The position numbers were made by a program, and so were the translations under genes. Below the pieces are notes generated by a model. The model was given only the letters and a program-made list of their open reading frames with translations. It searched no databases and was not told where the DNA came from. From Planctomycetota bacterium (GTDB taxonomy: Bacteria; Planctomycetota; Phycisphaerae; Sedimentisphaerales; Anaerobacaceae), in the NCBI GenBank assembly GCA_023135935.1, contig JAGLSU010000038.1, positions 1 through 35,417 on the forward strand: a stretch of DNA of 35,417 bases, read 5' to 3'. Positions 25,299-29,869 of this stretch are shown in pieces. How positions within the stretch are numbered: the stretch's first letter is position 1; each line of letters starts with the position of its first letter.

Positions 25299-28013
25299 AT
25301 GCGTGGTTCTAAAAGAACTGAAAAATCGTTCGTCAGGATTATAGCTTTTATAGCTGTCTGTCTTTTTATTGCGGGCACTGCTCATGCTGCTCGTAGGCAT
25401 AAAGTACTTATTCTTAATTCTTACCATAAAGGGCACCCTTGGGCTGATAACATTGTCGAGGCGATACAAACCGAGTTTAACAACTCAGAGTTAAACATCG
25501 AACCTGTCTATGAGTATATGGATATGAAACGATACCGCGCCAAAATTGTCTTCCCTCATCTTAGAACGTCGTACAAATTAAGATATCACAGAGGTGAGTT
25601 TGATGTGATTATCGTTTCAAACGGGGGTGCTATCGACTTTCTTTTTGAAAACTATTCATTTTTGTTCCCGAAGACACCAATTGTTTTTTGTGGTATTGAA
25701 AGGGGAAATGTTCCGACCATTTTGAAAAGGCTGAAGGGTACTAAGGGTATTACAGGTGTTGTCGAGGAGGTGGATGTAAAAGGCACCGCGGATTTAGCTT
25801 TGCGTTTGCACCCTCGAGCTAAGCGAATTGTCATAGTCGCTGACCATATAAACCCGAGCCATATACTTTTTGAACAATTACGAGAGTTAAAAAACCAGGT
25901 TAAAGTGCCTGTTGAGTTTGTTCAAACCGCCAATGTGGGTTCTTCCGCTAGGGTAAAAGAGATGCTCAGTAAGTTGCCCGGTGATTCCGTGATTCTTCTT
26001 TCATCTTCTTCTAATCTTCGATTTGGCATTTCAACGATAGCGGAAAATGTCGGCAGGATTACCGGAAACTGTGATTTGCCTGTCTATACGTTTTGGGATG
26101 ATAGAATCACCAACGGTGTAATAGGCGGTGTGGTGATAAGCGGGCAAATGCATGGCAAGACCGTTGCGCAAATGGCTTTGAGAATTATAAAAGGCGAATC
26201 AGCCAACTCCATCCCTGTTGTTACTAAAAGTCCAAATGCTATTATTGTAGATTATGACCAGATGAAGCGATTTGGAATTTCACGCTCATTGCTTCCCAAG
26301 GGGACTGTGATTCTTAATGAATCGCAATCTTTCTATTACCGATACAAGACACATATCTGGGTAGTGATAGTAATTATCACAGTTCTGGCGGTAATGAACA
26401 CGATTCTTGTAGTCAATATGATACGCCGCAAACGTGCCGAGGAAGCTTTGCAGGATGAACGCAATTTATTGCGCACTATAGTAGATGCCCTGCCGCATTA
26501 CGTCTATACCAAAGATACCAAAGGCAGATTTACCCTTTGTAATGTTGCACTTTTCCGCTCACTGGGAGCGAAAAAGATGGACGAGGTCATCGGACACACG
26601 GACTTCGATTTTTTCCCCGAGGAGCAAGCGAAACAGTATTGTGCGGATGAACAACAGGTTATCCAGTCAGGAGAACCTCTAATCAACAAAGAAGAACCTT
26701 ACCGGGAACAAGCGGGCGAGAAGAAATGGGGTTTGACTACCAAAGTTCCTTTGCGTGATAGCCATGGAGAGTTAGTTGGTATTGTGGGTGTTGGCCGGGA
26801 TATTACCGATCGCAAGCGGTCCGAGCAGAAATTAAAAGAGTCGGAGGCAAGATACAGGGCGCTATTTGAAAAAAGTGCGGAGGGTATAGTTGTTGCCGAC
26901 ATTGAGACCAGGGACTTTGTATATGTTAATCCGGCAATATGTGAAATGTTGGACTATACAGAAAAAGAATTATTGGAAAAGGGTTTGACGGGTATCCATC
27001 CGGAAGATGCTTTGGAGCACGTGTTTTCTGAATTTACGGCACAGGCGAAGGGAGAAAAAACTTTATCGGAAGATGTTCCATGTTTAAAAAAAGACGGAAC
27101 AGTAATATTTGTCAATGTCAATACAACCAGAATTGTAATAGATGGAAAAAAATGTAACGTCGGATTCTTCACAGATATTACCGAGCGTAAAAAAACCGAA
27201 GAGCAACTGCAAAAAGTCAGCGATGAACTGGAAGCAAGAGTTGAGCAGCGCACCGCCGACCTTGCCAAAGCGAATATAGATTTACGTAGCGAAATCAGCG
27301 AGCGTCAAAAAGTGGAAGAACAGCTTTTGGTGTATCAGGAACAGTTACGTTCATTGGCTTCGGAACTATCGTTATCTGAAGAACAACTGCGGCGAAAAAT
27401 GGCAATTAACATTCATGACAATATTAGTCAGAACCTTGCCATTTCCAAAATGAAGCTGGAATCATTGGCTAACTTCTCGTCTTCTTCCGAAGTTACTAAA
27501 ACTTTAAACGAAATTCACGACTTAATTGCACAGACAATCAACAGTACCCGTTCTTTAACATTCGAGCTAAGTCCTCCCGTGTTATATGAACTGGGTTTTG
27601 AAGCCGCTATGGAATGGCTCGTGCGGCAAATGAGAGAACGTCATGGCATTGCCGCAGAGTTTGAGGACGACGGCGAACCGAAAGAAATGAAAGATAATGT
27701 TCGTGTGCTTTTGTTCCAGGCGGTACGTGAATTATTGGTCAATGTTGCCAAGCACGCAAAAGCTAAAAAGGTGACAGTTTCATCCCGAAGTGTGAATGGG
27801 AATATAAAGGTTTGCATTGAGGATGACGGCGTCGGATTTGACCCGAGCAAGGTTGATTCTGAGCTTTATAAAACGAGAGGCGGATTTGGTTTGTTTAGCA
27901 TACGAGAGCGATTGGGTTATATGGGTGGCAATATCAATATTGAATCAAAGGAAGGCGAAGGCACCCGTATTACTCTTGAGATGCTGATTGGCCGTAAAAA
28001 CGGCGGAGTGTAG
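25299..28013 (+). CDS. Sensor histidine kinase: periplasmic ABC-substrate-binding-like domain, two PAS domains, HisKA_3 kinase
   Basis: A 904-residue membrane sensor. A signal peptide or first helix (about 9-28) leads to a periplasmic domain (33-335) of the ABC_sub_bind type (KVLILNSYHKGHPWADNIVEAI ... FPHLRTSYKLRYHRGEFDVIIVSNGGA), so it probably senses a small ligand outside the membrane. One helix follows (353-374, IWVVIVIITVLAVMNTILVV). PAS domain 1 spans about 388-505 and PAS 2 about 512-635, then a coiled coil to about 700. The NarX/DegS-type phosphoacceptor is H706 in RRKMAINIHDNISQNL. The ATPase has NVAKHA, DDGVGFDP and GGFGLFSIRERLGYMGG. The response regulator follows 5 bp later. The ligand is unknown. 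Confidence 0.93.
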   Translation: MRGSKRTEKSFVRIIAFIAVCLFIAGTAHAARRHKVLILNSYHKGHPWADNIVEAIQTEFNNSELNIEPVYEYMDMKRYRAKIVFPHLRTSYKLRYHRGEFDVIIVSNGGAIDFLFENYSFLFPKTPIVFCGIERGNVPTILKRLKGTKGITGVVEEVDVKGTADLALRLHPRAKRIVIVADHINPSHILFEQLRELKNQVKVPVEFVQTANVGSSARVKEMLSKLPGDSVILLSSSSNLRFGISTIAENVGRITGNCDLPVYTFWDDRITNGVIGGVVISGQMHGKTVAQMALRIIKGESANSIPVVTKSPNAIIVDYDQMKRFGISRSLLPKGTVILNESQSFYYRYKTHIWVVIVIITVLAVMNTILVVNMIRRKRAEEALQDERNLLRTIVDALPHYVYTKDTKGRFTLCNVALFRSLGAKKMDEVIGHTDFDFFPEEQAKQYCADEQQVIQSGEPLINKEEPYREQAGEKKWGLTTKVPLRDSHGELVGIVGVGRDITDRKRSEQKLKESEARYRALFEKSAEGIVVADIETRDFVYVNPAICEMLDYTEKELLEKGLTGIHPEDALEHVFSEFTAQAKGEKTLSEDVPCLKKDGTVIFVNVNTTRIVIDGKKCNVGFFTDITERKKTEEQLQKVSDELEARVEQRTADLAKANIDLRSEISERQKVEEQLLVYQEQLRSLASELSLSEEQLRRKMAINIHDNISQNLAISKMKLESLANFSSSSEVTKTLNEIHDLIAQTINSTRSLTFELSPPVLYELGFEAAMEWLVRQMRERHGIAAEFEDDGEPKEMKDNVRVLLFQAVRELLVNVAKHAKAKKVTVSSRSVNGNIKVCIEDDGVGFDPSKVDSELYKTRGGFGLFSIRERLGYMGGNINIESKEGEGTRITLEMLIGRKNGGV

Positions 28014-28018
28014 AGCAA

Positions 28019-28672
28019 ATGAAGATAAAAATTATATTAGTTGACGACCATAAAATAACCCGGCAGGGACTTCACTCGTTGCTTGACGAGCAAAAGAATA
28101 TGGAAGTTATAGCCGAAGCAGAAGATGGACGCGAAGCTGTATGTAAGGTACGCGAATTGTCTCCGGATGTGGTCGTTATGGATGTCAGCATGCCAGGCCT
28201 AAATGGCATGGAAGCGACTCGTCAAATTGTCAAAGAATTTCCTAATATCAAGGTTATCGCTCTTTCGATGCATTCCGATATGTTGTATGTATCAGAGATG
28301 CTCAAAAGCGGAGCCTCGGGGTATCTGCTGAAAGACTGTGCTTTTGACGAATTGGCACGGGCGATAAACACTGTCGCCGTCGGTAAAACTTACTTAAGTC
28401 CAGCAATATCCGGAGTTGTCGTTGATGACTATTTGCACCGTCTGACAAAAGCTGATATTGCAGATGCCGATGTCCTCACGGATAGAGAGCGCGAAGTTCT
28501 CCAGCTTATGGCAGAAGGGAAATCTACGAAGCAAATTGCCTTGCAGCTCCATATCAGCGTCAAGACCGTAGAAACACATCGCCGCCAGATAATGAACAAA
28601 CTGGACATTCACACAGTCGCGGAGCTTACTAAGTATGCTATCCGTAAAGGACTTACGTCTCTTGAACCATAG
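28019..28672 (+). CDS. NarL/FixJ-family response regulator
   Basis: A 217-residue DNA-binding response regulator. The receiver has the acidic pair at D9-D10, phosphoacceptor D55 (VVVMDVSMPGLNGMEA), Ser in ALSMHSD and Lys in YLLKDCAFDE. The LuxR-type helix-turn-helix is at about 152-215 (LTDREREVLQLMAEGKSTKQIALQLHISVKTVETHRRQIMNKLDIHT). It is the cognate partner of the adjacent HisKA_3 kinase. Its targets are unknown; a structured RNA-like region begins about 125 bp downstream. In gammaproteobacteria, regulators of this family (UvrY/GacA) control CsrA-sponge RNAs; extending that here is inference only. Confidence 0.95.
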   Translation: MKIKIILVDDHKITRQGLHSLLDEQKNMEVIAEAEDGREAVCKVRELSPDVVVMDVSMPGLNGMEATRQIVKEFPNIKVIALSMHSDMLYVSEMLKSGASGYLLKDCAFDELARAINTVAVGKTYLSPAISGVVVDDYLHRLTKADIADADVLTDREREVLQLMAEGKSTKQIALQLHISVKTVETHRRQIMNKLDIHTVAELTKYAIRKGLTSLEP

Positions 28673-28678
28673 TTCATA

Positions 28679-28709
28679 ATAGCGTTTTTTGTCGCTATAT
28701 GTGTTTTTT
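28679..28709 (+). terminator. Terminator-like hairpin after the two-component system
   Basis: ATAGCG (28679-28684) pairs with CGCTAT (28693-28698) around an 8-nt loop; five bases later a run of six T (28704-28709) follows. It lies 7 bp after the response regulator stop. Confidence 0.5.
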
Positions 28710-28797
28710 GCCTCTCAGGTTTTTCTACCCCCAAAATCAGGAATGTCCCGATTACATGTTCACGCCAATAATCTTAGAATAAGTATATTATATTAGC

Positions 28798-28978
28798 CTC
28801 CAGTGTGGAGAATTCCGGATTTAAGAGGGAGCTATCTTCCTAAAAAAATTGAATTTACGGAGGAGGATATTCTTCCTAACCGAAAAAAGGAGTAACAACG
28901 GAGTAGTACTCTATTAGCGTTATTGGGTGTGGATGTTGGTGGAGTGCTTTCAAAAGGGTTGCTCCTTTTTATTTTTTT
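28798..28978 (+). ncRNA. Candidate structured small RNA with four hairpins and many GGA motifs
   Basis: Four helices can be drawn: 28798-28810 (CTCCA/TGGAG), 28826-28841 (6 bp, one G-U), 28861-28877 (7 bp, one G-U), and a long closing stem pairing 28884-28896 with 28958-28970 (13 pairs, one G-U) that runs into a T-rich tail like an intrinsic terminator. Ten GGA trinucleotides occur between 28798 and 28970, four of them in AnGGA form (28826, 28857, 28887, 28898). Hairpins 2 and 3 share a TTCCTAA 3' side. TTCACG at 28759 and TATATT at 28784 are a weak promoter guess (19-bp spacer). It matches no RNA family I can name with certainty. Confidence 0.45.
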
Positions 28979-29040
28979 GTATTTTCAGCGAGTTATATTT
29001 TTCGCTTTTACTTTTAGTGTTACTATTGAATGAATGCATA

Positions 29041-29107: not shown

Positions 29108-29869
29108 TTAATCTTTGGCTTTTTCATCTTCCTTTTTGGCTGGCTCTTCCTCTTTTTTCTCGGTTGTCTCTTCCTTTGCTTCTTCTACTTTCGCGGGAGT
29201 TGCCAGGGCTTTGATGTCTTCGGCTGTTTGAGCATCGTCGTATATGCGGACGTCATCGATAAGACCCTTGAAGAAACGTCTTGCGTCAGGGTCACTCGTT
29301 TTATAATGTGCACCAATGCAGACAACATTGGAACCGAAGTTCTGGATAAATCCTTTGCCGGGCATATTAGCATCCAATACACCATCTGTATACATCTTGT
29401 ATGTTTCTCCGTCATATGTAGCAGCTACATGGTGCCATTGACCGTCGCTCACATTCTTTGTGCCTGCGGCTTTACTTTCGGCTGGTTGAGTATTCATACA
29501 TTGAAATATAGCTGTATTGTCTGCTCCACCCATTAGTCTCCAGTTATAAGCTTTGGTTACGATAGAGTTATACTTGCCCAATGCCGTGGTCTTTATCCAC
29601 GCTGCTACTGTAATGCTGCGGGTGATGTAACCGGCATCGTCATTGCCAATGTAAACGTAATCGTCAACGCCGTCCAGACTCAGTACCTGTCCTCTGTTGG
29701 GGTCGGTAACTATCTTGGCGCCACCGGTAGGCGTGCCAACAGCAGTACCTGTTCCGCTGTTAGTAAAATCGTCCTCAAATTCGTAATGGGCCAACAGGTC
29801 TGCTGATGCGATGCCAACCAAACCCAATACTAAAATGGTGACGGTCAGGTAAGATAATTTTCTGTACAT
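29108..29869 (-). CDS. Exported LamG/concanavalin A-like domain protein with Lys/Glu-rich tail
   Basis: A 253-residue secreted protein. A signal peptide covers 1-23 (YLTVTILVLGLVGIASA). Residues about 25-220 form one LamG/laminin-G-like jellyroll: LLAHYEFEDDFTNSG, LSLDGVDDYVYIGN, SITVAAWIKTT, DGQWHHVAATYDGETYKMYTDGVL and FKGLIDDVRIYDDAQTAEDI are the usual strand motifs. Such domains bind glycans or proteins. The last 32 residues (from about 222) are almost only E, K, A, D and T, a low-complexity charged tail unlike the usual planctomycete sorting tails. GAGGAG lies 8 nt before the ATG. Single-gene unit with its own terminator. Confidence 0.9.
   Translation of the reverse strand: MYRKLSYLTVTILVLGLVGIASADLLAHYEFEDDFTNSGTGTAVGTPTGGAKIVTDPNRGQVLSLDGVDDYVYIGNDDAGYITRSITVAAWIKTTALGKYNSIVTKAYNWRLMGGADNTAIFQCMNTQPAESKAAGTKNVSDGQWHHVAATYDGETYKMYTDGVLDANMPGKGFIQNFGSNVVCIGAHYKTSDPDARRFFKGLIDDVRIYDDAQTAEDIKALATPAKVEEAKEETTEKKEEEPAKKEDEKAKD

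Follow-up and report, generated by a model that had tools for sequence, protein, structure and literature searches.

Introduction

Small RNAs (sRNAs) associated with two-component systems are a known kind of regulator, as illustrated by FasX (PMC12675982), the csRNAs (PMC3091779) and the Csr sRNAs. In Streptococcus pyogenes, the FasX gene lies at the end of a kinase/regulator locus and is transcribed separately, from its own promoter with an upstream regulator site (PMC12675982). The csRNAs of streptococci are driven by the two-component system CiaRH; a direct repeat and the -10 box are separated by a fixed distance, and several sibling RNAs have an unpaired element in common (PMC3091779). In the Csr system, the GGA motifs of high-affinity CsrA ligands are located in hairpin loops (PMC7652899). 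The binding site of UvrY is an 18-nt palindrome, TGTGAGAGATCTCTTACA, which lies far upstream of csrB (PMC4682653). Few descriptions of planctomycete regulatory RNAs seem to exist; within a limited literature search, none was found for this group.

Here, we describe a locus of an uncultured planctomycete from sediment, located in a 35,417-nt stretch of DNA that was analyzed as a whole (the window). Positions 28787-28975 probably encode a trans-acting sRNA of about 190 nt, which the adjacent two-component system would drive through a tandem TCAGG promoter. The sequences show a conserved covarying structure, an invariant loop, a promoter and a position that are both conserved, and no conserved ORF, whereas the transcription of the RNA, the binding of the response regulator (RR), the function of the loop and the targets are inferred. 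As judged from few literature searches, neither the RNA family nor its regulon motif seems to have been described before, and the same holds for its host group.

Layout of the Locus

The features of the locus are as follows.

25299..28013, plus strand: sensor histidine kinase gene (Pfam: ABC_sub_bind, PAS repeats, HisKA_3, HATPase_c)
28019..28672, plus strand: NarL/FixJ-type RR gene (Pfam: Response_reg and GerE)
28679..28698, plus strand: terminator-like hairpin, 3' of the RR gene and 5' of the RNA promoter (simple consensus scan)
28713..28781, plus strand: conserved promoter with TCAGG at 28715 and 28737 and the -10 box TAGAAT at 28775-28780 (alignment A3, profile R3, spacing test)
28736..28752, no strand assigned: near-palindrome ATCAGGAATGTCCCGAT, candidate site for an RR dimer (predicted binding), centered about 43 nt upstream of the predicted start
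28787..28879, plus strand: 5' domain of the RNA, variable, with six of its ten GGAs (start placed from the -10 box)
28880..28978, plus strand: conserved 3' domain of the RNA, with outer stem P1, inner hairpin and U-run (R1/R2 matches, P1 covariation)
28884-28896/28958-28970, plus strand: P1 outer stem (covariation)
28925..28932, plus strand: GGGUGUGG in the apical loop (identical in 14/14 orthologs, largely unpaired in most folds)

A previous reading of this DNA, made from the sequence alone, had listed a multi-hairpin RNA candidate under 28673-28978. The RNA gene itself spans approximately 28787-28975, whereas 28673-28786 comprises intergenic space and the promoter. The hairpins lie where that reading had placed them; in the last one, 28884-28896 pair with 28958-28970 to form an outer stem of 13 pairs, which runs into TTTTTATTTTTTT. 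The region 28790-28990 folds with -63.9 kcal/mol (z = -4.1), and 0 of 200 shuffles were equally stable. Further downstream, a convergent gene for a LamG-domain secreted protein (window 29108-29869) separates the RNA from a pyruvate:ferredoxin oxidoreductase gene; the oxidoreductase is located directly 3' of the RNA in the relatives G023, G093, G094, G001 and G079.

Conservation and Structure of the RNA

In a first DNA search against 60 relatives, the downstream region was matched in G023 and the upstream motif in several genomes; once the loci retrieved were read, the RNA was seen to follow the same RR gene in G019, G023 and G005. The relatives are Phycisphaerae/Sedimentisphaerales MAGs, many of them from one CSMAG series. 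A covariance model, R1, was then built from four 3' domains (28880-28978 in the window), and 89 genomes of the family were searched. Fourteen clear orthologs (E <= 1e-6, R1/R2) were obtained: G000 (the window's own genome), G001, G005, G010, G019, G023, G030, G076, G077, G078, G079, G092, G093 and G094. Strong matches of R2 (about E <= 1e-14) were confined to the family when 161 genomes of the order and 397 of the class were searched. The association with the adjacent NarL-type regulator, proposed from the sequence alone, is supported by the RNA lying directly 3' of an orthologous RR gene in 13/14 genomes. In these 13, the 3' domain is found 137-262 nt past the RR stop codon, and the RR orthologs that flank the RNA in the 12 genomes other than the window's are 69-81% identical. 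In G077, the RNA and its promoter repeats are on contig 81 and the RR gene is on contig 80.

The analysis confirmed the structured RNA and its conservation. A covariance search in relatives, suggested in the sequence-only reading, found it conserved and covarying in 14 genomes of the family. Seven of the 12 P1 pairs changed on both sides, with 96.4% of cells paired; 0 of 500 shuffles reached the covariation score, and slid controls were 42-66% paired. The P3 columns in alignment A2 are out of register between genera, and therefore only P1 was counted. Within P1, an inner hairpin presents the open apical loop UUNGGGUGUGG on the terminator-like hairpin. The GGGUGUGG portion of the loop does not differ among the 14 orthologs and is mainly single-stranded in most of the folds. 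No conserved ORF of at least 15 codons was found in the RNA. In Rfam, at gathering and relaxed thresholds, the window gave no family at cut-off and only unconvincing weak matches, among which no Csr/Rsm family (CsrB/CsrC/RsmY/RsmZ) occurred.

The position behind an operon and the U-run at the end would also suit a mere terminator of the RR operon lacking any regulatory function. Such an explanation is highly improbable in view of the separate promoter, the invariant loop, the covariation and the retention of the RNA away from the RR gene in G077. A second possibility is that the element controls the next gene in cis, as a leader or attenuator in which the 3' hairpin serves as a regulated terminator. 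Some weight stays with this reading, as in 9/14 genomes a gene on the same strand, POR in five and mltA-like in four, begins about 80-350 nt past the RNA; moreover, alternative folds involving the terminator are possible for distant relatives of the RNA (type B, see below). However, the next gene is convergent in the window, and in G030 and G092 no clear gene on the same strand immediately follows the RNA. The downstream gene also differs between genera while the RNA persists, and the RNA is equipped with a promoter of its own as well as a U-run. We consider a cis-acting role unlikely. By sequence, the traits of the element are those of an sRNA: its own promoter, a terminator-like end, structure and no conserved ORF.

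Promoter Motif and Putative Regulon

Eighteen promoters, 14 of RNA genes and four of protein genes, were compared. TCAGG repeats 22 bp apart are present in nearly all of them, the second repeat usually inside the palindrome ATCAGGAnnnTCCTGAT. The second repeat and the -10 box lie 37-39 nt apart in nearly all 18, where the script counted the spacing of G001 and G079 from a later TAAGG/TAGGG match and the alignment shows the same register. Matches to a -35 box are at chance level across the 18 promoters (3.06 vs 2.96 expected). We take this layout of the RNA promoter to be that of an activator-dependent promoter. The promoter had earlier been called weak; it is so by the sigma-70 consensus, but it carries a conserved activator-type signal.

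Against profile R3, the window's promoter scores E=1.5e-14, being itself part of the training set. Strong R3 sites (E < 1e-8) occur in 19/89 genomes. They were found in 17/19 genomes with an RR ortholog of at least 69% identity vs 2/70 others, a co-occurrence that is partly circular, as most of these genomes fed R3, and that a shared clade may account for. Sites outside the training set are located in G032, G095, G000:C82, G001, G079, G023, G093, G010 and G014. An RR tree of 17 sequences has weak inner forks and carries no claim.

Besides the RNA, rrf2-like genes carry the motif upstream in at least seven genomes, with a MazG-like ORF behind in several, and so does an isochorismatase-like gene (in G000: C82). 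The window's genome thus contains three sites: those of the RNA, of rrf2 (C47) and of the isochorismatase-like gene (C82). In another instance, the motif in G010 (L174, G010:C12:186767-186836, minus strand) stands ahead of a short hairpin, ACAGGGCTGGG...CCCAGCCCTGTTTT, whose loop is rich in C; this may be a second regulon RNA.

The repeats might belong to a different regulator, for example the Rrf2-type protein of the regulon, making the RR a mere neighbor. The sites upstream of rrf2-like genes are what autoregulation would produce. On the other hand, the motif is found behind RR genes with both types of RNA (see below) and tracks the RR orthologs (17/19), and we regard control by another protein as rather unlikely, though less so than a cis-acting leader.

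GGA Content and the Question of a CsrA Sponge

The sequence-only reading had proposed a CsrA-sequestering RNA of the CsrB/RsmZ kind. Such an RNA would titrate CsrA via many GGAs and be driven by a GacA/UvrY-like regulator. The underlying count is correct: the window's copy has ten GGAs, four of them as AnGGA, where dinucleotide shuffles give 4.9 and 1.5, and the fraction of shuffles reaching ten GGAs is 0.00 as printed (n=500). The genome does contain csrA (G000:C151, E=1.2e-25), the presence of which had been named as a check, and FliW was not found in it (84% complete). In G029, both promoter repeats, but only this part of the motif, stand upstream of csrA itself (L176, G029:C45:5736-5776, minus strand; weak, E=1.3e-5). 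Through these repeats, CsrA may be tied to the present RR in another way.

The enrichment is confined to the window's copy, since the 13 homologs carry 1-6 GGAs each, with no enrichment over chance. The concern, raised from the outset, that several GGAs lie in stems was well placed: none is fully unpaired in the window's minimum-energy fold, and the folds of all 14 RNAs include a single GGA in a hairpin loop. The GGA-rich 5' domain is unconserved, differing among the orthologs in both length and sequence, and it is almost gone in G077. The conserved loop holds no conserved GGA. Neither the loop-borne GGAs of high-affinity CsrA ligands nor a far-upstream UvrY palindrome was seen at the RNA locus, the promoter signal of which is unlike that palindrome. 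Because the GGA enrichment is private to one copy, a loop-borne GGA appears once in 14 folds and a UvrY-type site was not seen, a sponge is not the conserved function. GGA counts and structural context in the 14 orthologs rule it out in that role, and the CsrB/RsmZ-like reading is overall very improbable. An extra CsrA-sponge effect could still exist in the window's species alone.

Proposed Mode of Action

According to the favored reading, a trans-acting sRNA, the HisKA_3 kinase would phosphorylate the neighboring NarL-type RR, which would then bind both TCAGG repeats, centered near -43 and -64, thereby switching on a promoter devoid of a -35 box. The RNA's own terminator-like hairpin would end transcription and present the invariant loop UUNGGGUGUGG. 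This loop would be the active site, either pairing with C-rich stretches of target mRNAs or binding a protein. A search for exact loop complements returned 220 sites (at most one mismatch) vs 179 for the reversed control, RNA genes being counted in, and hence no clear enrichment. Hfq was not found in the window's genome (84% complete).

Sibling Loops and Related RNAs

The search for loop complements also brought up sibling hairpins. In the same genomes, the exact 12-mer TTTGGGTGTGGG occupies the loop of other terminator-like hairpins built on different stems, which are candidate sibling sRNAs (G023:C46:49455, C62:38791 and C84:8376; G094:C226:515; G005:C36:14007; G078:C22:78117; G076:C47:23823; G077:C63:262). 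With a gapped pattern of loop plus T-run, siblings were found mainly in genomes that have the main RNA, and matches elsewhere were chance matches. The window's genome additionally contains a paralog of the entire 3' domain (L101, G000:C126:2803-2888, E = 6.6e-7), about 130 nt upstream of a gene that by eye resembles an ECF sigma factor.

Weaker matches (E about 1e-10 to 1e-3 over various searches) define the type B relatives, which are probably homologous to the window's RNA. In these, an upstream strand is complementary to the RNA's own loop, and the two tested fold with z = -5.2 and -5.8. For the distant relatives, Rfam returned no convincing match at gathering or relaxed thresholds. Several type B loci lie beside chemotaxis operons with CheA, CheY- and CheW-like genes (L098 in G072, L104 in G017, L184 in G127, L183 in G140, L100 and L091 in G004), and tandem pairs occur in G072 and G004.

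A different RNA-like sequence of about 300 nt is found within 500 nt past the RR gene in genomes with more distant RR orthologs. In G003, G099, G098 and G083 (RR about 61-65% identical), the same palindrome is followed by an unrelated conserved sequence with an invariant TCGCCGAGG (L125, L126, L127 and L129, respectively); in G017 (L132) and G009 (L131), the sequence with TCGCCGAGG is present and the palindrome is degenerate. By eye, the palindrome in G098 is about one helical turn farther from a -10-like box. Four of these loci were run against Rfam and had no match, and RNAalifold on the six RNAs (type C) yielded no convincing consensus past one stem.

Discussion

Taken together, these results provide a planctomycete RNA with a gene structure, a covariance model and a two-component system that may control it through a precisely defined DNA motif. 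The putative regulon is small, comprising the sRNA, an Rrf2-type regulator with a MazG-like gene and an isochorismatase-like hydrolase. Each of these points is directly testable. Because the exact loop is common to unrelated terminators and the RNA is swapped behind the same regulator and palindrome, the sequences suggest that RNA output may be a general habit of this signaling branch. More tentatively, the loop UUUGGGUGUGGG might be a shared functional module, placed on terminator hairpins of several RNAs per genome in this planctomycete order, with some copies driven by the NarL-type system and type B copies beside chemotaxis operons and phage-like loci. It would then mark an undescribed RNA superfamily with one seed, or an undescribed RNA-binding protein; this is possible, although we would not expect it. 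If true, the UUUGGGUGUGGG superfamily would carry signaling output through one common seed or protein.

Comparison with Known Systems

With CsrB/RsmZ under BarA-UvrY or GacS-GacA, the locus shares a NarL-type regulator, an sRNA, a palindromic site and the presence of csrA. Here, however, the GGAs are unconserved and outside loops, and the palindrome is different; moreover, the site in the window is next to the -10 box, whereas the UvrY site is far upstream of csrB (PMC4682653). The resemblance to the CiaRH csRNAs includes the constant spacing between a direct repeat and the -10 box, an unpaired element common to several sibling RNAs and a putative two-component drive. In contrast, the csRNAs are scattered and CiaR is of the OmpR type, and their element is complementary to SD/AUG, while here a G-rich apical loop is found. 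FasA of the FasBCA-FasX system is a ComE-like regulator, unlike the NarL-type RR of the window, and the two RNAs are unrelated. Nevertheless, as in that system, an sRNA gene with its own promoter and a (here predicted) upstream regulator site lies at the end of a kinase/regulator locus, and this FasX-like adjacency to a two-component system is found in 13/14 orthologs.
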